DNA from: a virus
Virus record (IMG/VR): IMGVR_UViG_3300032240_000022
Location: 1-24,969 of that record
Reading direction: 5' to 3' (one strand)
Length of the DNA stretch: 24,969 nucleotides
A program made the position numbers and the translations under genes. Every line of letters starts with the position of its first letter. The stretch's first letter is position 1. Shown piece after piece: positions 8,201 through 24,494 of the stretch. The notes below the pieces were generated by a model, which was not told where the DNA came from, did no database searches, and saw only the letters and a list, made by a program, of their open reading frames with translations.

Positions 8201-9097
8201 TTATGCTGCTATTGCTACCCAATTAGGGTTTTGTGTGTCAATAATATCATTCCAAGCGGGTATTTGCGAGTCATTTATGCCAGTCCAATTTGCTGTTTGG
8301 TTATCTGGAATTACTTGCCAAATAATGACGCTACCAACCTGACCTGTTGCACTTACACCTGTTACCCCTACATCTATTCCAATTCTTACTAAAACTGAGC
8401 CTACACTACCCGTAACCTGGAACCCTGTAACATTGATATTCTGACCAGCCTGTACGTTAACTGGGTTTAATTGAGTAGTCCCAACTACACCCGTTACGCT
8501 TACAGCAGCTCCAGCCGTTGTAGTTAAAGAACCTACGCTTGCTGTGGCAGAAACCCCAGTTACACTAACTCCAGCACCTTGCTGTACCGTTACACTTCCA
8601 ATACTACCAGTAGCACTTATTCCAGAAACAGCCGCATTTGCAGCTATTTGTACTGTTACTGAGCCTACACTTACTGTTCCTGCAACACCTGTAATGCTAA
8701 ATGATGCAGTTCCTGTTTCAGACGGACTACCAATACTTCCTGTGGCACTAACTCCAGTTACACTTACAGCAGTTACCGTTGTGACGGTGACAGATCCTAC
8801 ACTTCCAGTACCAGTAACCCTAGTTACACTAACCGAAGCATTTGCATTTATCGTAACAGAGCCTACTGACCCTGATGCACTTAAACCTGTTACTGCTACA
8901 GAACTACCAGCCTGAGCTGTTACTGTGCCTACACTTCCCGTTCCACTAACACCAGTTAAATTAACACTGGTATTAGACTGTACTGTTACTGATCCAACTT
9001 GTCCTGTGGCGGAAACGGAAACACTTCCATAACCCCACGCAGACTGACCCCAGCCTTGGCTTCCCCAGCCTCCTAACGGAACAATGACATCAGCCAC
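8201..9097 (-). CDS. Tandem-repeat virion protein (22-residue repeats) with Trp-rich ends
   Basis: 298 residues from GTG (9097); the only in-frame alternative upstream is blocked by a TGA six bases before it. Residues 9-25 are Gly/Trp-rich (GGWGSQGWGQSAWGYGS). Residues 26-261 are eleven tandem copies (nine full, two partial) of a 22-residue unit with consensus V-S-V-T-G-V-S-A-T-G-S-V-G-S-V-T-V-x5. The last 35 residues carry four Trp (WTGINDSQ, WNDIIDTQ, NW). Strand-turn-strand units of this kind suggest an elongated beta-solenoid or fibre shaft. It lies among structural genes, so a fibre or whisker is the likely role. No enzymatic motif is seen. Confidence 0.8.
   Translation of the reverse strand: MADVIVPLGGWGSQGWGQSAWGYGSVSVSATGQVGSVTVQSNTSVNLTGVSGTGSVGTVTAQAGSSVAVTGLSASGSVGSVTINANASVSVTRVTGTGSVGSVTVTTVTAVSVTGVSATGSIGSPSETGTASFSITGVAGTVSVGSVTVQIAANAAVSGISATGSIGSVTVQQGAGVSVTGVSATASVGSLTTTAGAAVSVTGVVGTTQLNPVNVQAGQNINVTGFQVTGSVGSVLVRIGIDVGVTGVSATGQVGSVIIWQVIPDNQTANWTGINDSQIPAWNDIIDTQNPNWVAIAA
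8315..9022 (-). repeat. Eleven tandem 66-bp coding repeats
   Basis: Protein period is exactly 22 residues (66 bp). Full copies span 8372-8965, with partial copies on each side. Copies have diverged (for example copy 9 reads VVGTTQLNPV instead of VSATGSVGSV), so it is an old array under selection for the VTG and VGSV strands, not a fresh expansion. Confidence 0.85.
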
Positions 9098-9557: not shown

Positions 9558-9845
9558 CTATTCTTCTAAAAGTTTAATTAATTCGGGGTGACCAGCTTCC
9601 CTTAGCTTGTGAGCTAGTGTTACACGATCAAATTTTACTGCCTCATTCATGTAAAAAACTAATACCCCACGGATGTTATTGCGAAAAGCGTTTGCTTGTT
9701 CACGAACCAATGGGTGGGATTGGTCGCCTACTTGAATGATTTTATCTAGTGCTCTTTCAGCTATTTCCTCTGGAGAAAATCCTCCATGGTCTTTAGTAAA
9801 GACTTGGATTCCGTTAGATTCGCCTATTCCTTGTACAGTTATCAT
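9558..9845 (-). CDS. Conserved small helical phage protein
   Basis: 95 residues, mostly helical and charged. The recognisable conserved core is ALDKIIQVGDQSHPLVREQA followed by YMNEAVKFDRVTLAHKLREAG, seen in small proteins next to neck and adaptor genes of many phages. No enzymatic motif is present. The start ATG (9845) overlaps the adaptor gene's stop by 4 bases (ATGA), so the two are probably translated together. Function is unknown; a minor virion or assembly role is inferred from location. Confidence 0.75.
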   Translation of the reverse strand: MITVQGIGESNGIQVFTKDHGGFSPEEIAERALDKIIQVGDQSHPLVREQANAFRNNIRGVLVFYMNEAVKFDRVTLAHKLREAGHPELIKLLEE

Positions 9846-10501
9846 TTTACTGGATACCTCACTTGACCGCTACGATAAGAGTCTTGACGATCCTTAGCTT
9901 CGCCTAATTGTTTAAGTTCTACCATAGCTTCATCGTAACGAGCTTTGTAATTGGTAATAACATCTGCATCAGACTTCATAAATGTAGCTGCCTCCAATAA
10001 TGCTCCATAGACTAATACCATAGAGAAATTATCTCCAAGCCAGCTTGTGCCAGCTGTAACAATGGAAGTTGGATAGTAGAAATAATGGAGTTCTGTAGCG
10101 TAATTAGCGTTCGGGGTAGGCCCAAGAATAAAAGCAGTGGAATCAAAAACAGCGTAATACTGCGGTTCACCATAGAAAGTAGAGTCAGTATCTGGGAAGG
10201 CTTCACGAATAAAGTTGACATCTTTGTTTAAAAGATAAAGATATTCGTTATTGGAATTAATTACTGCAAGGCTATAAGTTGCAAGCCAGTCTGTAGGCAT
10301 TTGGAGATACTTGTTTCCAGATGTCATGTTACCTGTAACGTTCTTACGAAACGCTGGCATTTGCACCATATTGTAGATGCGTTGCTCCGCCAACTGCACA
10401 AAGGTAGCAATTTGCTGTGCAGAAGTAAACGACCCAACCGTAGCTGGAAAGTCGTTTTCAGCGTAACTTTTAATTACAGAAGTTAATTCCGTGTAGTTCA
10501 T
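9842..10501 (-). CDS. Head-tail adaptor, SU10-type
   Basis: 219 residues. The N-terminal helix MNYTELTSVIKSYAENDFP, then IATFVQLAEQRIYNMVQMPAFR, then the strand-rich middle (YLQMPTDWLATYSLAV) and a C-terminal helical hairpin (DADVITNYKARYDEAMVELK) match the adaptor proteins that dock below the portal in short-tailed phages (Pfam-type SU10 adaptor; also called tail-tubular A-like). Such proteins form a dodecameric ring joining portal and tail nozzle. Start ATG overlaps the stop of the previous gene by one base (TAATG). The family call is from pattern memory, but the helix and PTDW order are distinctive. Confidence 0.8.
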   Translation of the reverse strand: MNYTELTSVIKSYAENDFPATVGSFTSAQQIATFVQLAEQRIYNMVQMPAFRKNVTGNMTSGNKYLQMPTDWLATYSLAVINSNNEYLYLLNKDVNFIREAFPDTDSTFYGEPQYYAVFDSTAFILGPTPNANYATELHYFYYPTSIVTAGTSWLGDNFSMVLVYGALLEAATFMKSDADVITNYKARYDEAMVELKQLGEAKDRQDSYRSGQVRYPVK

Positions 10502-10779
10502 TAAGCCATTGGTCCTCGTGCCATTACACCTTTAGTAGCTGCGCCCGTGCCACGAATCTTTACTTTGCCATTCTTGTCAATTTGTGTTGAAGCAGGATTA
10601 CCCGTGCTAACTCTACGAGCTGGCATACCGCCTGGCGTAGACTCAACAGCACTCATTGAGTTTGGATCAGTTTTATAGCCAATATCACTAGATTTCATAG
10701 CTTTTCCATCCATAGTGTGTGGTTTTGCATAGACTTTGGCATCGCCAACTTCTTTACCCATAACTTTTTTGCTAAACAT
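10501..10779 (-). CDS. Small basic protein with C-terminal RGTGAATKG motif
   Basis: 92 residues, basic and low-complexity, with PGGMPARRVSTGNPA in the middle and the end KIRGTGAATKGVMARGPMA. The C-terminal G-A-A-T-K-G (79-84) is a relative of the G-C-A-T-K-G core in the Lys/Gly-rich protein at 13556-14209. Many small phage proteins of uncultured phages end this way, with no known role. It shares one base with the genes on both sides (TAATG junctions), which shows it belongs to the same translated block. Possible nucleic-acid contact is suggested only by the positive charge. Confidence 0.7.
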   Translation of the reverse strand: MFSKKVMGKEVGDAKVYAKPHTMDGKAMKSSDIGYKTDPNSMSAVESTPGGMPARRVSTGNPASTQIDKNGKVKIRGTGAATKGVMARGPMA

Positions 10780-10982
10780 TATCGACCTCTTCCAGCTGCT
10801 TTACGCATACCTTGGTTTTGAACCTTAGCTAAATTACGACCAATTTTCTTCATTACGTTTTGGTCTTTACCTAACATTTTTGGCTTTGACTTTAGTACTG
10901 AAGCTGTTGGACCGCTATCACCTAAATTGCGACCTTCTGTTTTGCCTTTTTTGGCTACACCATCTGCATCACGTTTAAACAT
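10779..10982 (-). CDS. Very small basic protein with ADG-x-A-KKGKT motif
   Basis: 67 residues, strongly basic. The N-terminus carries ADGVAKKGKTEG (residues 6-17; nucleotides 10932-10967), the same motif found at the C-termini of the proteins at 12844-13554 and 13556-14209. The rest is a Lys/Arg/Gly-rich helix ending MRKAAGRGR. It has a good ribosome site (AGGAG, 7 bases before ATG). Function is unknown. Basic character and association with the virion block allow a DNA-associated or ejected protein, but nothing in the sequence proves it. Confidence 0.7.
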   Translation of the reverse strand: MFKRDADGVAKKGKTEGRNLGDSGPTASVLKSKPKMLGKDQNVMKKIGRNLAKVQNQGMRKAAGRGR

Positions 10983-10991
10983 TTTCTACTC

Positions 10992-11414
10992 CTAAGTTGT
11001 TGTTACTGTTACGCTACCTACTAAACAAGATGGGGCAAGATCGTTGGGTGTTAAGCCATTGTCTCTAGACCCTCCAACGGGGTTCCATCCCCATTGAATA
11101 ATCCTACTTCCACCTGCTGGATACCCTACACCCTGTTCAGTTGTGCTATTGGTACCATTAATCTGTAATCCACTACTGCCTGATACTGTATAACTGACAT
11201 CTGGTCTTGGTTCCCGAACCGCTTGCGGGTCATCAACAGGGTACATACCTAATGATAACTGCGGTTGGTCTGGTTCCCAACACTCAGGACAAACCTTTAT
11301 ATTCTTCATTTGCTGCTTTACGACCAGCTTTCTAAGCTCTTTTAGCTTATAGCGCTGACCGCATCGATCACACTCTGCAATGGCAAACTTGCCACTACTG
11401 TACTTATTAGGCAT
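10992..11414 (-). CDS. Zinc-ribbon phage protein
   Basis: 140 residues. An N-terminal zinc ribbon with CDRCG (C15, C18) and CPECW (C42, C45) is followed by QPQLSLGMYPVDDPQAVREP, a strongly recurring phage pattern I recognise, then a Gly/Ser-rich tail ending SCLVGSVTVTTT. The tail echoes the VGSVTV repeat of the fibre-like protein at 8201-9097. ATG at 11414 overlaps the stop of the neck gene by 8 bases. A structural zinc knuckle in a virion or assembly protein is likely. The precise role is unknown. Confidence 0.8.
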   Translation of the reverse strand: MPNKYSSGKFAIAECDRCGQRYKLKELRKLVVKQQMKNIKVCPECWEPDQPQLSLGMYPVDDPQAVREPRPDVSYTVSGSSGLQINGTNSTTEQGVGYPAGGSRIIQWGWNPVGGSRDNGLTPNDLAPSCLVGSVTVTTT

Positions 11415-12333
11415 AGAAGGTAGTCCTTGGCACGAATCTAGAAGCCGCCTTCTCCCTATCCTCCGTAGATGCCATTAACCATTGTTCTTCGTATTCACTT
11501 TTTAAAAACTGCATTCTTGGCAACGCATCTGGTAATTTTTGGGATAAGTAGAAAGCCAATCCAGCTACCATACAAGGCAACAAACGGAAAGGAATATCTG
11601 GTTCTACTGTACCGTTAGTGCCAGCGTCTTGTATTCTGCGTAGTCTCCAGTAAACAAAAGTATAAGGACCACCACCAGCATCAGGGGTGGGCCAAACATT
11701 TATACATGGAAGGTTTTTATTGGTAATAGCAGCGCCAGTAGTGTGGGATGCTGCAGTTGTACCGCTTTGACCACGATAGCAATTGATTAATTGATTGCCA
11801 GAAACGTTGGCATAGCCAATAATTTCTGAATCAATTTGAATGAATCCAGCGCTTGCCAGTTGACTTGCATCGCTTATAGTAATAGTAGTAGCGGTAGAAT
11901 TAATGGTGCCATTTAAAGTAACGCTTGTACTGTTGCTTTGACCAGTTTGGCGGTTAAACCACATCTGGATAGGGCGACCTTGAGTCAGCTTATTGGGAAT
12001 GGTTGAATAGGTAGACTCAGAAATACGGGTAATATTAATGTCAATCTGGTTGCTTTGAACACCATTGTTTTGACGAATAATAGTGTCTAAAAGGTCAATA
12101 GTGTTAGTTGGTACAGGGTATATACCTTGACCTGTTACCAGCTCAATCTGACCTTGTTCAATAGTCCATAGGTTTAAACCACGATTAGCCCACTCTACAG
12201 TCAGTAGATTTAAAGACCTACGAGCGGTACGCATATCGTAACCAGTACGCAGTTCTGTACCACAACGCTCAAAAGCCTCTTCAATGAGGTTATTGAGGTC
12301 TAGATTAAAAGTAGTTATGCCTGATGTACTCAT
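11407..12333 (-). CDS. Neck/adaptor-like virion protein
   Basis: 308 residues. The N-terminal helices NLIEEAFERCGTELRTGYD, then RRSLNLLTVEWANRGLNLWT, and the strand region IELVTGQGIYPVPTNTIDLLD resemble P22 gp4-like and other head-tail adaptors. A central section (about 145-200, GTINSTATTITISDASQLAS to CYRGQSGTTAASH) is a beta-rich insertion, and the C-terminus is helical (YEEQWLMASTEDREKAASRF). It follows the small basic gene by a 4-base ATGA overlap. It probably joins the portal/adaptor stack to the tail, but with the SU10-type adaptor also present, the division of labour between the two is unclear. Confidence 0.75.
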   Translation of the reverse strand: MSTSGITTFNLDLNNLIEEAFERCGTELRTGYDMRTARRSLNLLTVEWANRGLNLWTIEQGQIELVTGQGIYPVPTNTIDLLDTIIRQNNGVQSNQIDINITRISESTYSTIPNKLTQGRPIQMWFNRQTGQSNSTSVTLNGTINSTATTITISDASQLASAGFIQIDSEIIGYANVSGNQLINCYRGQSGTTAASHTTGAAITNKNLPCINVWPTPDAGGGPYTFVYWRLRRIQDAGTNGTVEPDIPFRLLPCMVAGLAFYLSQKLPDALPRMQFLKSEYEEQWLMASTEDREKAASRFVPRTTFYA

Positions 12334-12578
12334 ATTTTCCTAAACGGCTTTACTTTTGCTTTTACCTTTTGCGGCTGCGGCACGAACTGCTGCCCCCGTG
12401 CTTTTCCTGCTCGTTTTGCTTTTGTCGTTGCTGCGTACTCCTGCGGGCTTAGGGCTTCTATTGCTTTTTTTGGCAGGTATCTCTCCCCCGTCTTGGACGA
12501 TGGTTTCCCTGACTTGGTTGTCCATTTCTGGTCTCCCCAAGCCTTTAAAGATTTTTGCGATTTTGTTAATCCACTCAT
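12330..12578 (-). CDS. Small basic phage protein (KSGK...RYLPKKAI type)
   Basis: 82 residues, very basic: QKWTTKSGKPSSKTGERYLP, KKAIEALSPQEYAATTKAKR and a Lys-rich end (KVKAKVKPFRKI). The order of KSGK, RYLPKKA and Q-FV-PQP recurs in small proteins of uncultured phages. ATG (12578) forms an ATGA overlap with the stop of the gene before it, and its own stop forms an ATGA overlap with the neck gene, so it is locked into the translated block. An overlapping GTG frame of equal length exists at 12340-12588, but it lacks the ATGA junctions and any recognisable pattern. Confidence 0.8.
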   Translation of the reverse strand: MSGLTKSQKSLKAWGDQKWTTKSGKPSSKTGERYLPKKAIEALSPQEYAATTKAKRAGKARGQQFVPQPQKVKAKVKPFRKI

Positions 12579-12847
12579 TTATATCCACCGCCAGCCGCCT
12601 TATATTTTTTTGCTACTAGTTGAGCTTTACGAGCTGACCATTGACCAGCACCAGTGCCTTGTGTTGCAGCTGCTTTAACTTGAAAAACAATCCGTTTACG
12701 CAAGCTAGGTTTTGTGTAATTACCAGCAGCATTAACTGTGCCGCCTTCTTTGTACTGAGTAAAGTCGGTGTCATCTCTACGGGCTTTCTTTTTCCCGTTA
12801 GGCATTTTAGAGGGGGAGATTGCTCCCATTCCTCTGCTTGGTCTCAT
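12575..12847 (-). CDS. Small basic phage protein (ARKAQLVAKKYKAAGGGYK end)
   Basis: 90 residues from ATG (12847; MRPSRGMGAISPSKMP), chosen because it forms an ATGA overlap with the stop of the gene before it. An upstream ATG nine codons earlier would lie wholly inside that gene. Contains DDTDFTQYKEGGTVNAAG, whose YKEGG resembles the KKGG elements of neighbouring proteins, and ends QLVAKKYKAAGGGYK. It is strongly basic and of unknown function, but is a recurring neighbour of neck genes in environmental phage blocks. Confidence 0.75.
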   Translation of the reverse strand: MRPSRGMGAISPSKMPNGKKKARRDDTDFTQYKEGGTVNAAGNYTKPSLRKRIVFQVKAAATQGTGAGQWSARKAQLVAKKYKAAGGGYK

Positions 12848-13554
12848 GCTCTTGTTTTTCCACGAATTGCACAACCGTCAGCACGTCTAGATGCTGAAGA
12901 ACGAACAGATCCACCACGTTTAAACGCACCAGATCCACCATCGTCAACCATTTCTTCTGCTTGGCGTTTAACTGGGATCTTTTTGCCAGATTTATTGGTT
13001 ACCTCTTTAACGCCCATACCTTCGGTTGATTTACCAAAATTTGGCTTACTCTGTTTAACAGGAATATCTTTGCCTTTAACTGACACAGTTCTAGTTGGCT
13101 TTAAAGCATCTATAGTTTCAGATGGGTTAAAACCTTCTTCAGCTCTACGGACAACATTTTTAGCTGCGCCTTCAGCAGCTTCTTTGGCTGTACGCTTTGC
13201 GCCCATTTCAACCACTTTTCTAAGCATTGGCTTAAGTAAACCAGCACCAGGAATATAATCTTCTGGATGCACAGGCTCAAGTGCTTGAGACTTGGTTAGC
13301 TTTTCCATACGTGCCCGTTCAGCTTCCATATCCACTGCTGGCTTGGTAGGTGGAACAACTGTTTGAGAGACTTTAGAGGTGCTTTTAGAAGCTGCACGAG
13401 TTACTGGGGCACCGATATCACGAGACTCTTCGCTAGCGCCTTCTACATACTTCATAGCCTTGCTACGAGTATCTTCATTAATACTAGGAACAGGGTTTGA
13501 AGGATCGGCAGTGACGTAGTCACCATCAGAAAACTTGCGCAGTCTCTTTCTCAT
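12844..13554 (-). CDS. Lys/Gly-rich protein with C-terminal ADGCA-x-RGKT motif
   Basis: 236 residues from ATG 13554 (MRKRLRKFSDGDYV). A GTG five codons earlier also keeps the frame but the ATG follows the preceding stop by one base and matches the KKVRKYAEGD segment of that neighbour. The middle is helical and charged (EAERARMEKLTKSQAL, KRTAKEAAEGAAKNVVRRAE), and it ends FKRGGSVRSSAS then RRADGCAIRGKTRA. The last 12 residues are the motif seen also in the neighbours at 13556-14209 and 10779-10982. Low-complexity, basic and of unknown function; possibly a packaged, DNA-binding or scaffold-associated protein by composition only. Confidence 0.75.
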   Translation of the reverse strand: MRKRLRKFSDGDYVTADPSNPVPSINEDTRSKAMKYVEGASEESRDIGAPVTRAASKSTSKVSQTVVPPTKPAVDMEAERARMEKLTKSQALEPVHPEDYIPGAGLLKPMLRKVVEMGAKRTAKEAAEGAAKNVVRRAEEGFNPSETIDALKPTRTVSVKGKDIPVKQSKPNFGKSTEGMGVKEVTNKSGKKIPVKRQAEEMVDDGGSGAFKRGGSVRSSASRRADGCAIRGKTRA

Positions 13555-13555
13555 A

Positions 13556-14209
13556 TTAGCAAGCTCCACCTTTTTTCATGCTAATCATTGTGCCTTTAGT
13601 TTTACCTTTTGTGGCGCAGCCATCGGCAGAGGAACGGAATGAGCCACCTTTAGCCATCTTTTTAGGAGCACAAGCCATACCGCCCTTTTTCAAAGTTAAC
13701 TTTGTGCCTTTACCGCCTTTATGCTCTTGCATATCATGCTCTTTAAACGCTTTCTTGATCATGGCAACATCTTGTTTCTTGTCCATTTTCATATCTTCTT
13801 TAGCATCACTGGTCATGCCGCCTTTTTTCATGCCATATTTGCTGCCCAAACCAGCAGACATACCAGCTTTTGCTAAACCACCCATTCTTGGGTTTTTATT
13901 CATACCAGTCTCAGCATCTTGCTTTTTAAGCATATCTGAATCTTCTTTACTAACTCTACCAAGACGGCTACCACGGTCTTTACCCATGTTTAAATGCGAT
14001 CCAACGTAGGCAGAATTATCTTCAACCATATCGCCTTCAGCATATTTACGAACTTTTTTCATCATTCCACCTTTTTTAAATGTTTTGCCTTTATCGGCAG
14101 CGGCAAAATCTTTGCCAACGGATTGAGGAACTCCTGCTTTTTTAGCCATTTTTGGGCTATGTGCAATCATTTCCATGAAATTGTGTTGTTTTTTAGAGAC
14201 ACTTGGCAT
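13556..14209 (-). CDS. Lys/Gly/Met-rich protein with repeated KKGG elements and ADGCATKGKT motif
   Basis: 217 residues. N-terminus KKQHNFMEMIAHSPKMAKKA, then AGVPQSVGKDFAAADKGK, is a recurring environmental-phage pattern. It is followed by five KGG elements (FKKGGMM, MKKGGMTS, LKKGGMAC, AKGGSF and the final MKKGGAC) and one ADGCATKGKTKG (residues 195-206). Methionine and lysine are unusually frequent. No enzymatic site is visible. The combination of dispersed basic-glycine elements suggests a flexible protein contacting DNA or many protein partners, but that is inference. The next gene starts 2 bases after its stop. Confidence 0.75.
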   Translation of the reverse strand: MPSVSKKQHNFMEMIAHSPKMAKKAGVPQSVGKDFAAADKGKTFKKGGMMKKVRKYAEGDMVEDNSAYVGSHLNMGKDRGSRLGRVSKEDSDMLKKQDAETGMNKNPRMGGLAKAGMSAGLGSKYGMKKGGMTSDAKEDMKMDKKQDVAMIKKAFKEHDMQEHKGGKGTKLTLKKGGMACAPKKMAKGGSFRSSADGCATKGKTKGTMISMKKGGAC

Positions 14210-14212
14210 TAT

Positions 14213-14449
14213 TTATTTCCTAATAAGTTCGTCAATTTTGCTTTCAAGTTTGTTAAACCTTGAGTCCATGTGTTCAACAATGCGTTCAAGTTCTGCTTTA
14301 GTAACGTTATCACGAGCCACCTCTTCTCTTGTTTTGTTTAACAAAATATCAATGCGCTTTAAATCATTGAATTTTTCATGCATCATATAACCAATTAGGG
14401 CTACAAATATAGTTAACCCGCCAGTCCAAAGTTCCATCATATTTAGCAT
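14213..14449 (-). CDS. Small membrane protein with cytoplasm-side coiled coil
   Basis: 78 residues from ATG 14449, which overlaps the preceding gene's stop in an ATGCTAA junction and follows GAGG by 5 bases. A GTG two codons earlier is less likely. Residues about 6-23 (LWTGGLTIFVALIGYMM) form one membrane helix, followed by a charged heptad-like helix (DLKRIDILLNKTREEVARD to KLESKIDELI). The topology resembles haemolysin XhlA-like or spanin-like proteins, often near lysis or ejection genes, but here it sits in the virion block well away from the holin-like gene. Role unknown; membrane-associated ejection factor and lysis helper are both possible. Confidence 0.65.
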   Translation of the reverse strand: MLNMMELWTGGLTIFVALIGYMMHEKFNDLKRIDILLNKTREEVARDNVTKAELERIVEHMDSRFNKLESKIDELIRK

Positions 14450-14706
14450 TTCCACCTCGCTAAAGAGGCAGCCTTTCTGGTTGGTCTACCTTTTTCGTCC
14501 TTCATTGGACCTGGCATACCAGACATACGAGCGCAAAATGATTTCTTTCTAGATCCGCCTTCAGGCTGTGGAGCCTTTAGATTCGAGCCAGTAGCCGCAT
14601 TATACTTAGCACGACCTTTGGCGGTAAGCCCAGCACCCTTAGATACAGGCAACTTTTCACCACGACCAATCGCAAGAGAAACTCCCTTTTTCTTTTTAGT
14701 AGCCAT
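14443..14706 (-). CDS. Conserved small basic Cys-containing protein (FCARMSGMPGPM type)
   Basis: 87 residues. Starts MATKKKKGVSLAIGRG, continues LTAKGRAKYNAATGSNLKAP, and ends SFCARMSGMPGPMKDEKGRP then ARWKC. This is one of the most recognisable small proteins of environmental phage genomes (I believe a DUF6321-type protein, number unverified), with two conserved cysteines and a KGRAKYN helix. Basic throughout. ATG 14706 shares a base with the glycosyltransferase stop (TAATG). No function is established. Confidence 0.8.
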   Translation of the reverse strand: MATKKKKGVSLAIGRGEKLPVSKGAGLTAKGRAKYNAATGSNLKAPQPEGGSRKKSFCARMSGMPGPMKDEKGRPTRKAASLARWKC

Positions 14707-15461
14707 TATGCAGCTTCCTTCTTAGAATCAACTGGACGGATCAATGGGTATAAAAACTCTTCACCAAAAGATCCTTCAAATTCGTGAACACCCATATGAC
14801 CTAACTTAATTGTAGGATCAATCCATACTTCAAAACCTTGTTCACGGGCACGGTCACAGAACAGATAGTCTTCACCAATGTATTGCCCATCTTTTAACTC
14901 AAAGTCAAAGAAGCAGATTGTTGTATCGCCTTCTTTCTTCTCATCGTGATAAACCCACTCTGGATGAGCTTCAGCTAACTTTTCAAACACTTCTCTGCGG
15001 ATCATCATAAAAGCTGTCGCTACACGCTTGGCTCTAACTAAACCCATTTTGTCCATGAAAATGGTTTCATCGTCTGTGTCTAACGTAGAAAAATAAACTT
15101 GACCTTTTTTACGAGCAACAGGAATACCAGCAACGATACCTTTTTTAGGGTCGCTATTCCATGCCATTAAACGGAAAATGTCTTCCGCATTAAAGTTAAT
15201 GTCCGAATCAATGAACATTAAATCTGTACAGTCTGAGTTTAAAAAATCAGTTGCAATTAGATTGCGTACACGAGATACGACAGAACATCCAGAAATATTA
15301 CAGACCTGAACATCAACACCGTGTTTCATTGCCATTAAACAAAAATTAGCCATTGAAATAGCTAATTTAGAGGATACTTTGTAATCGTAGGATGGAAGAC
15401 CTAACATTACCTTCCGACCTGCTAAATTATATCCAGCCTCTAAGCGAACTTTTTCGGTCAT
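14706..15461 (-). CDS. GT-A-fold glycosyltransferase-like protein
   Basis: 251 residues. After the first strand (VMLGLPSYDY) comes a helical region, then LMFIDSDINF (DSD at 85-87), which matches the metal/nucleotide-sugar-binding DxD of GT-A enzymes. The C-terminal part has GEDYLFCDRAREQGFEVWID and IKLGHMG, where E197/D198 and H222 fit the catalytic-base and metal-ligand region of GT2-type and related families. A transferase that modifies phage proteins, host surface sugars or DNA is plausible, but substrate cannot be read. Its place between capsid-type genes and the small basic block suggests co-expression with the virion. Start ATG 15461 follows a short GGA-type ribosome site. A structural, non-enzymatic role cannot be excluded. 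Confidence 0.8.
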   Translation of the reverse strand: MTEKVRLEAGYNLAGRKVMLGLPSYDYKVSSKLAISMANFCLMAMKHGVDVQVCNISGCSVVSRVRNLIATDFLNSDCTDLMFIDSDINFNAEDIFRLMAWNSDPKKGIVAGIPVARKKGQVYFSTLDTDDETIFMDKMGLVRAKRVATAFMMIRREVFEKLAEAHPEWVYHDEKKEGDTTICFFDFELKDGQYIGEDYLFCDRAREQGFEVWIDPTIKLGHMGVHEFEGSFGEEFLYPLIRPVDSKKEAA

Positions 15462-16672: not shown

Positions 16673-17587
16673 TTAAGCGCCTTGTGATCCCCACATTCCG
16701 AGTGGATCAGACCAACCAAAGCTGTAACGCTCACGAGACTTGTAACGAACGTTACCAGTATCGAAATCACCGTCCATGCTGTTGCTCAAAGGTGTACGAA
16801 CAAAGTGCTTCATACCATTTGGAACATCAGTTGTTAGGAAGTAACCATTTGGATCGGTCAAGAAGTTGTTAACTGTGTAACCTTCTGAAACTGAACCATT
16901 GTTTACGATTGCGTTAATGTCATTGTCGGTTGTACCAACACGCAGTTGAGTTTCGAGCAAGCGAGTTGCAACGAATTGTAACTGTGGAGGAACAATCAAC
17001 TTCTTAGGTTTAGCAGCGATCAATAAGCCACGCTCGTCTGTCCATTGAGCGATTTGAATAACGGCAGCTTCCAAGGAAGTTTCGTTCAAATCAGCCATTG
17101 TGGACTGAGTGTTGCTGTTTGTACCGCCAGATACCAATGGGTGAGCAGTGCTGAACAATGGAACGCCATCGCCACCGTAATAAGCGGCAGAGCTAGTGAA
17201 TCCGTTGTTTAAAACAGCAGCAGCTTTAACCTGTTTGGTATAAGCCATAGCACGAGCCAAAGCCTTTGTATAGCGAGCTGACAAGGAATCGTAGAGGTTG
17301 TCTTCGATTGCTTCTTCAGTCAAGCTAAAGCCAAGGGCGATAGTTTCGTGGTTGTAACGAGCTGTAAATGCCTCTTGAGCATTGTCGTAACGAATGGCAG
17401 AGCCTTCGTTTTTGACAGGTGCTGCAGAGAAGCCAGACAGCTTGGTTTCTTCTTCGAACGAACGCTCAGAGGTCTCAGTATCGTAGATCTCTTTGTGTTG
17501 TTCACCGTAGCGAGCGTACTCAAGTCCGAACAAAGCGTTCAAACCAGGGAGCAACTCTTTCAGTAGTTGTGCACGTGAAATAGCCAT
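16673..17587 (-). CDS. Major capsid protein
   Basis: 304 residues. N-terminus AISRAQLLKELLPGLNALFG with EYARYGEQHKEIYDTETSER, the E-loop-like segment ETKLSGFSAAPVKNEGSAIR, a long helix DNLYDSLSARYTKALARAMA, and C-terminal strands (KHFVRTPLSNSMDGDFDTGN, ending RYSFGWSDPLGMWG) fit an HK97-fold capsid protein (Mu gpT-like type by pattern). It has a strong ribosome site (AAGGAG, 7 bases before ATG) and is the last gene before a strong terminator, giving high steady-state output. Preceded by scaffold and decoration-like genes, as in other phage head blocks. No protease gene is visible, so scaffold removal may use another route. Confidence 0.88.
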   Translation of the reverse strand: MAISRAQLLKELLPGLNALFGLEYARYGEQHKEIYDTETSERSFEEETKLSGFSAAPVKNEGSAIRYDNAQEAFTARYNHETIALGFSLTEEAIEDNLYDSLSARYTKALARAMAYTKQVKAAAVLNNGFTSSAAYYGGDGVPLFSTAHPLVSGGTNSNTQSTMADLNETSLEAAVIQIAQWTDERGLLIAAKPKKLIVPPQLQFVATRLLETQLRVGTTDNDINAIVNNGSVSEGYTVNNFLTDPNGYFLTTDVPNGMKHFVRTPLSNSMDGDFDTGNVRYKSRERYSFGWSDPLGMWGSQGA

Positions 17588-22764: not shown

Positions 22765-24267
22765 TTAGTAATACGCAACTTTTCGTTTTGGCAAATCATA
22801 ATCAGGCTCATCCGAATTGATACGGATAAACCCGCCTTGACGGAATCTGAGGAGGGCTTGGGATGTTGAGTCAACCAAGTCATCGTGGTCTCCGTTAGGA
22901 AAAGAAGCACACTCTTCCATTACTTCCTCCGCCCATCTAGTATTGGGACACCATACAAACCCTGATGCAAATAAGTCTGAGATGGCGTTTACACGGGCTA
23001 TCTTATCACTTCCTTTGCCTGGTGTATATTCCTGCAGCGGGATTCCCATCCGCCTCATTTCATAAATTAATGGAGCACCCGCAGCTTTTTTCTCAATAAT
23101 TAAAGTGTGAGGTTCATATTCTTTGTAAAGCTCAAATGCTTTGGCTTTTAATTCAGGGAACTCCATGCGCTCTTTAAACGCATCTAACAGGATAATATGG
23201 GCTACATCCCGCCCATCAGCATCAGTCTTATAGAAGATTCCCCACGTGGTGCAAGCGGAGTAGTCGGCACGGTTATTCTTTTCAAAAGCGGTGTCCCATG
23301 ATTGAATAATGTAGTCGCAAAACGGTGGCTCGTCATCATCCCAGATCTTCCACATCTCTCGTTTGATGATTGCGCCCTCTTCTGAGGTCGGATTTTGTTG
23401 ATACTGAGCTTCCCATTTACCTACAGGGATCTCCGCTTTAATTGCTTCTAGCTCTTCCTTTTTCCAAAATTGGGGCCAGAGTGGGTTTCCTGACGGCATC
23501 AAAGCAGGAAATTCAATTACTTCCCATTCATCGCCTTCCCGCTTAATGGAGTTTTCAATGATCTGTCCTGTCAAGTCTCGCTTAGACCAGCGGGTCATTA
23601 CAATCACAATAGCCCCGCCTGGTTGTAGACGCTGACGTGGACCTGATGAATACCACTCGTAAACCCTGTCGTAGACCTCTGGGTTGCCTTGCATGGCTTC
23701 TTGCTCTGAATGCGGATCGTCAATAATGAGGACATCCGCACCTTTACCCGTTACGGCTCCGCCTACACCAATCGCAAAATAATCACCGCCTTTATCTGTA
23801 TTCCAGCGACCTGCCGCCTTGGAATCAGAGGAAAGCTTAGTAGGAAATATCTCTTGATACTCCTGCATATTGACTAGGTTTCTTACTTTCCTTCCGAAAC
23901 CCACTGCCAGCTCCGCTGTATGGGCGGTCTGAATAATCTTCTTCTGAGGGTATTTACCTAGGAACCAAGCAGGAAATAGGTAAGAAGCGAACTCAGACTT
24001 AGTATGACGAGGAGGCATATTAATAATGAGGCGTTTGAGTGTTCCATTAGCTACTCTTTCAAAGGCATCAGCCATATCTTTGTGGTGTTTGCCTGGTATG
24101 AAGGCAGACCACATACTGTTAACAAACGATAAAAAATGCTCTTTACAGCGCTCCTTTTGATCTTCCTGCAAGATCACCTTAATCTTAGGTATCTCAGGAG
24201 AGTCTTTTGGAAGCGTGTCTAATAGACTCCTGTAACGCTGTAACTCTGCAGTGCTTAGTAGACTCAA
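22765..24267 (-). CDS. terL: Terminase large subunit
   Basis: 500 residues. ATPase: Walker A-like MPPRHTKSE (84-92), Walker B VLIIDD (179-184) and coupling motif VMTRW (223-227). Nuclease: D325 in QSWDTAFEK, E392 in IIEKKAAG and D462/D463 in GDHDDLVD, the expected RNaseH-like triad. It packages DNA through the portal. The start is TTG (24267), overlapping the preceding gene's stop (TTGA); no ATG or GTG is available before an in-frame stop upstream, and the next Met is residue 52, inside the conserved part. This rare start coupled to the upstream gene may keep expression low. No small terminase subunit is recognised by sequence; the LexA-type protein just upstream is in the usual place for one. 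Confidence 0.93.
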   Translation of the reverse strand: MSLLSTAELQRYRSLLDTLPKDSPEIPKIKVILQEDQKERCKEHFLSFVNSMWSAFIPGKHHKDMADAFERVANGTLKRLIINMPPRHTKSEFASYLFPAWFLGKYPQKKIIQTAHTAELAVGFGRKVRNLVNMQEYQEIFPTKLSSDSKAAGRWNTDKGGDYFAIGVGGAVTGKGADVLIIDDPHSEQEAMQGNPEVYDRVYEWYSSGPRQRLQPGGAIVIVMTRWSKRDLTGQIIENSIKREGDEWEVIEFPALMPSGNPLWPQFWKKEELEAIKAEIPVGKWEAQYQQNPTSEEGAIIKREMWKIWDDDEPPFCDYIIQSWDTAFEKNNRADYSACTTWGIFYKTDADGRDVAHIILLDAFKERMEFPELKAKAFELYKEYEPHTLIIEKKAAGAPLIYEMRRMGIPLQEYTPGKGSDKIARVNAISDLFASGFVWCPNTRWAEEVMEECASFPNGDHDDLVDSTSQALLRFRQGGFIRINSDEPDYDLPKRKVAYY

Positions 24268-24494
24268 AGCGAGGTCATCTTCTGAACGGTTCTATCGATG
24301 GGCACGAGGGAGCGGATCTTATTGGGTTGCACCTTTAAGAGTCCTCTATCCTTCAAATTGTGAATAATTCGGTGGATATTAGATTTGCTCTTCAGTTTGA
24401 GTCCTGTAGCTATATCAGCATAACTAGGGGAAAACCCTCGGTACTTAATAAAGTCTTCTATGAAGTGCAACACTTCCATTTGTCTTTCAGTCAT
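24264..24494 (-). CDS. LexA-type winged helix-turn-helix protein
   Basis: 76 residues. The whole protein matches the N-terminal DNA-binding domain of LexA: TERQMEVLHFIEDFIKYRGF, then SPSYADIATGLKLKSKSNIH with the recognition helix, then LKDRGLLKVQPNKIRSLVP. The C-terminal peptidase domain of LexA is absent, so it cannot self-cleave. It could be a small repressor/activator of late genes, or may serve as the DNA-recognition (small) subunit of the terminase given its position directly before terL. Ribosome site GGAG lies 7 bases before ATG. The fold call is firm; the job is inference. Confidence 0.85.
   Translation of the reverse strand: MTERQMEVLHFIEDFIKYRGFSPSYADIATGLKLKSKSNIHRIIHNLKDRGLLKVQPNKIRSLVPIDRTVQKMTSL

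Follow-up and report, generated by a model that had tools for sequence, protein, structure and literature searches.

Tagged late proteins in the window

The window, a virus record of 24,969 bases analysed over its whole length, carries late genes on the minus strand that encode a terminase, a portal protein, a GroES-like protein (phrog_3188 match), a putative scaffold, the major head protein, a DUF6321 protein, P1 and P2, continuing with adaptor 1, a zinc-ribbon protein, P3, P4 and adaptor 2. The protein encoded between the GroES-like protein and the major head protein is taken for the scaffold by its position and composition. The features on which the analysis centres are as follows.

9842..10501, minus strand: SU10-type adaptor 2 (PF24175, E 9.8e-24)
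10501..10779, minus strand: P4, 92 aa, with the conserved C-terminal tail KIRGTGAATKGVMARGPMA, possibly a cousin of the tag
10779..10982, minus strand: P3, 67 aa carrier, with N-terminal tag, linker and predicted helix (41-57)
10932..10967, minus strand: tag ADGVAKKGKTEG of P3, in-frame pattern match
11407..12333, minus strand: SU10-type adaptor 1, downstream edge of the tag slot
12844..13554, minus strand: P2 carrier, start placed at the ATG that follows the stop codon of P1 (GTG at 13569 in the ORF list)
12847..12882, minus strand: tag ADGCAIRGKTRA of P2, in-frame pattern match
13556..14209, minus strand: P1, 217 aa carrier, with an N-terminal module of 46 residues that virion proteins of jumbo phages also have
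13592..13627, minus strand: tag ADGCATKGKTKG of P1, in-frame pattern match
14443..14706, minus strand: DUF6321 protein, untagged here, with relatives elsewhere that carry the tag after the same C-terminus
16673..17587, minus strand: major head protein (phrog_371), upstream of the slot

The three ADG..GKT strings reported in the first-pass annotation are all encoded in frame. The first lies near the C-terminus of P1, the second forms the last 12 residues of P2 with the stop codon directly after it, and the third, in P3, is of the N-terminal form. A degenerate motif pattern detected exactly these three tags in the window, and a reversed control pattern detected none. The annotation had also stated that the carriers have nothing else in common, which needs amending for P1 and P2: both contain K/R-GGS-[FV]-R-S-S-A just upstream, so that the C-terminal tag form extends over about 20-25 residues.

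The RGTGAATKG tail of P4 had been proposed as a diverged cousin of the tag. It is the conserved end of its own family, since all 49 matches to RG[TC]GAA.[RK]G lie at the C-terminus, and it fits the joint pattern R[GA].G.A.[RK]G, which is C-terminal in 306 of 308 matches (shuffle mean 0.7). A common origin with the ADG tag is plausible at most. In the uncultured phage DSL-LC04 (PMC10611076), a protein encoded next to the adaptor (L216:1315-1542, minus strand) starts with MAGRGMGCATRGGG, a possible link or intermediate between the two.

Frequency, position and form of the tag

Relatives of P2 and P3 were taken from viral contigs by protein similarity, and further loci were collected by the motif DNA pattern alone; the locus set is therefore partly motif-selected, which biases it towards motif presence but leaves it unbiased in position, copy number and neighbourhood. 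Among 3,113 called ORFs of these related viral loci, DG.A..GK[ST] occurred 313 times, against 0.15 in shuffled proteins, and it was absent from 825 kb of control viral loci collected with the reversed pattern. The motif being at background frequency in unrelated proteins, which the first-pass annotation had named as grounds for abandoning the idea, is therefore not what we found. In the whole viral collection, the reversed DNA pattern gave 101 stretches, nearly all single, whereas the true pattern occurred several times per contig among the matches listed. The shuffled proteins, the reversed-pattern loci and the stretch counts together rule out chance or composition as the origin of the tag. 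Using patterns of the P2 body that do not include the tag, we found 18 loci, all of which contain it; in nearly every one it ends the P2 relative, down to 43% body identity.

The motif lies near a terminus in 299 of the 313 occurrences: 239 are no more than 25 residues from the C-terminus and 60 no more than 20 from the N-terminus. The C-terminal form is the twelve-residue [RS]-A-D-G-[CIV]-A-x-[RK]-G-K-T-[RK], usually preceded by a K-x-GG-(S/K/M) stretch and SSASKR; in the pattern-collected loci the stretch between the core and the stop measures exactly 5 residues in 137 cases, 2 residues in 19 and 13-14 residues in 37. The N-terminal form, ADG[IV]AKKGKTEG, starts at about residue 6 in the P3 family (60-70 residues). 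There is a second version of the tag, GGG[ICV]Ex[RK]GKT, which takes the place of the ADG version at identical sites within the same protein families. The D of one position and the E of the other were found together in none of 402 matches (Fisher p ~6e-53, relatedness ignored). In three loci (L093, L133 and L118), single proteins have two tandem tags or combine one tag of the first version with one of the second, a possible sign of multivalent binding.

Selection on the peptide and its portability

In the conserved residues of the tag, codon positions 1 and 2 are fixed, some of them by the search pattern itself, and third positions vary freely; one peptide, RADGCAIRGKTR, is written in 44 DNA spellings. 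Selection therefore acts on the protein and not on the DNA, and a DNA or RNA element read by accident is ruled out by the same observations.

Stripped of their tags, 308 carrier bodies fell into 103 clusters by blastp, between which remote homology is possible. Within the P1 family some form of the tag, GHT and GLT variants included, is present in all 64 members. DUF6321 proteins document the gain or loss of the tag as a unit: relatives of ~80-90% identity either stop at ...RAWNC or run 22-23 residues further with the first or the second tag version (the DUF6321 protein of the window is a more distant relative of this set). With many unrelated bodies, both termini, unit gain or loss on orthologous DUF6321 proteins and two interchangeable versions, the description of the motif as a portable tag is strongly supported.

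Tags within one genome are no more alike than tags from different genomes. Some tag copies have near-identical DNA, and after their removal no signal of tag co-evolution within a genome was left. For this reason we infer that the partner of the tag is conserved across phages.

DUF6321 is itself a C-terminal domain that behaves as a portable unit: its matches fall at the ends of PHROG profiles whose lengths range from 99 to 928 positions. It also has hits in 493 phage records, mostly of cyanophages, and the matches listed end at, or a few residues from, the untagged terminus.

A variable slot between capsid and adaptor genes

In records of 22-87 kb, the tags form one block near the SU10-type adaptor genes and on the same strand as these; an additional match on the opposite strand (G006:44346) looks like chance. 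Of 24 long tagged records, 23 contain PF24175, which was not found in either of two chance-match controls; the 24th tagged record encodes a relative of adaptor 1 by blastp. The gene order capsid, DUF6321, helix protein, tagged genes, adaptor recurs between phages. Carriers lie inside the structural block, between the capsid and adaptor genes, and not outside such blocks, the other finding that the first-pass annotation would have counted against the proposal.

The genes that flank the tagged block have median coverage-weighted identities of 76-91% to those of the window (major capsid protein 87, DUF6321 91, helix protein 89, adaptor 76). The corresponding values for tag-stripped bodies are 22% for P1 and 56% for P2, and P2 was found in only 24 of 56 loci. 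Since the flanks are conserved and the bodies of P1 and P2 are not, the block is a slot in which bodies turn over while the tag stays constant. The carrier bodies are disorder-prone and mostly basic, with a net charge per residue of 0.085 vs 0.028 in other ORFs; profile comparison detected no recognisable effector domain in them.

The zinc-ribbon protein encoded between both adaptors (10992-11414, minus strand) has a conserved QWGWNPVGG near its C-terminus, and similar CDxCGxRY proteins adjoin the adaptor in DSL-LC04 and in Synechococcus phage MinM2.

Distribution

Tag carriers were found in a large group of mostly uncultured phages. The named phages among the records found are MinM2 and Planktothrix phages Pag-Yong1 and Pra-JY27, with the tag sequence ...GRDGCAKRGRTKGRFI; MinM2 and Pag-Yong1 encode one tagged protein (MM2_5, L215:2274-3200). 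Short-peptide searches are weak, so further carriers may have been missed. The tag was absent from the regions read of HTVC027P, CRP-901, GB2A, Venkman and MW202545. A stringent tag pattern gave only 4 stretches in 84,980 cellular genomes, all on MAG or uncultured-bacterium contigs, which rules out a prophage or host protein as the source of the tag. No Pfam, PHROG or NCBIfam profile aligned to the tag residues when carriers and bare tag peptides were compared. Full-text searches of the literature gave no relevant mention of the tag strings tried; subscription papers fall mostly outside such a search, and an earlier description is possible.

A candidate docking tag for virion loading

As a module conserved at the protein level, the tag occurs on many unrelated late proteins, most of them basic and disorder-prone, whose genes share one variable slot. 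Binding, targeting or virion incorporation, as initially suggested, is the best-fitting candidate for its purpose. Our leading reading, which we put forward tentatively, is a docking tag that loads these variable proteins into the virion, in the manner of the capsid targeting sequence (CTS) of T4. During assembly the tag would bind a conserved site on a common virion component, such as the procapsid interior, the scaffold or the portal. The particle would in this way take up a small set of proteins particular to each phage, perhaps for ejection into the host. Tag constancy with variable cargo would be how the system works, as for the T4 CTS.

The internal proteins of T4 combine a constant terminal tag, the CTS, with variable bodies (PMC3012670). 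Like the tag described here, the CTS is a short terminal sequence common to several diverse late proteins of one phage. The two differ in sequence, in position (the present tag is mostly C-terminal, and only the P3 type is N-terminal) and in the number of body families, which is far greater here. Removal of the CTS by a protease has no known counterpart for the tag; profile scans recognised no separate prohead protease among the window proteins scanned.

Residues 1-46 of P1 (14072-14209, minus strand) match the N-termini of jumbo-phage proteins including PHIKZ165.1 and the virion protein CBB_322, which was found in virions by mass spectrometry with 30 peptides (PMC5259590). The same module is present in phrog_22033 and phrog_25121, both of which have the annotation virion structural protein. 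Such company for P1 favours the docking tag for virion loading. The module (PSVSKKQ; phrog_16759) resembles the tag in being terminal and common to phage virion proteins, and it sits at the other end of P1; it differs in its length of ~45 residues, its N-terminal position, its occurrence in cultured jumbo phages and its unrelated sequence. DUF6321 (PF19846), with 8 PHROGs matched, is likewise a module at the C-terminal end of phage proteins that vary in length, but it has ~80 residues and a conserved Cys, and in some phages the tag comes after it as a separate unit.

The docking tag agrees with the terminal position of the motif, its excess over chance, its selection at the protein level, the 103 body clusters and the variation of the tag on DUF6321 proteins. 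It also agrees with the fixed slot by the adaptors, the conservation of the flanks with turnover of the bodies, and the basic, disorder-prone character of the latter. By analogy, the detection of the P1 module in virions as part of CBB_322 and the same pattern in T4 internal proteins point the same way. Against it stand the mostly C-terminal position, unlike T4, the want of a recognised separate prohead protease among the window proteins scanned, the lack of recognisable effector domains in the bodies and the lack of tag likeness within genomes, which gives no sign of a genome-specific partner. We found no proteomics of a tagged phage in the literature.

Alternatively, the tag might be a structural anchor and not a cargo label. 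The carriers would then be flexible accessory components of the neck, portal or capsid, fastened by their ends to the adaptor, the portal or the capsid. Carriers adjoin the adaptor genes, have the tag at either terminus of a long disorder-prone body and in some cases have tandem tags, as such parts might; the fast turnover and varying number of bodies would be odd for structural components, and we consider this unlikely, if not to be neglected.

We regard as improbable a nucleic-acid-binding tail that condenses or holds packaged DNA: basic residues in and around the tag and the higher charge of the bodies would suit it, but the strict spacing, the invariant D-G-x-A and the D or E that are never both present suggest a specific fold or partner and not charge alone.

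The carriers might also be old duplicates of one gene of which only the tail is still recognisable, the tag then being inherited by descent and not exchanged between proteins. Their genes adjoin each other in one block, the tag DNA of some copies is nearly identical, and blastp clusters are compatible with remote homology. However, the DUF6321 protein and P3, which are clearly different proteins, are tagged as well, and conserved tails would still need a function; we find this account hard to favour.

Least of all do we expect that the tag imitates the mobile loop of GroES and binds the host chaperonin GroEL: SADGIA..G and GGGIEIKG may loosely resemble the GroES loop, and the phage encodes a GroES-like protein, but the hydrophobic loop residues are mostly not kept (A is followed by I, Q, T, V, S or K) and [RK]GKT[RK] has no known counterpart in the loop.

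The tag string GCATKGKT fits the Walker A consensus (GxxxxGK[ST]). The GK[ST] lysine is not invariant, being H, L or R in relatives (GHT, GLT, GRT), and the tag has no structure in low-confidence AlphaFold2 models (mean pLDDT 59) of P3 and a tagged DUF6321 protein. A P-loop NTPase is ruled out by the replaceable lysine, the location at the extreme terminus (the P2 tag ends at the stop), the predicted disorder and the missing strand-helix loop. Comparison with solved structures gave no match to the P3 profile and only insignificant matches (E 0.8 and above) to the DUF6321-tag protein.

To return to the docking tag, a fuller version of it, which is more tentative still, would be a virion-loading system of this large, mostly uncultured phage group: a single conserved docking site would be paired with a universal terminal tag that exists in two versions, and each phage would swap its own set of small proteins for packaging into the particle and delivery to the host. 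The fixed tag with interchangeable bodies is a marker of a whole class of late proteins with one testable common role, and shows a short linear motif outliving its carrier proteins. If the tag loads virions, candidate injected proteins could be identified from sequence alone in many unannotated genomes, and a second natural cargo-loading code would stand beside that of T4, with two equivalent versions to compare.

Other proteins of the window

A protein encoded inside the structural block (14706-15461, minus strand) resembles a glycosyltransferase family (phrog_12406, weak) and phrog_1574. The 298-residue protein at 8201-9097 (minus strand) is made of repeats like SVTGVSATGSVGSVTV. A small protein at 24264-24494 (minus strand) looks, by eye only, like a LexA-type DNA-binding domain.
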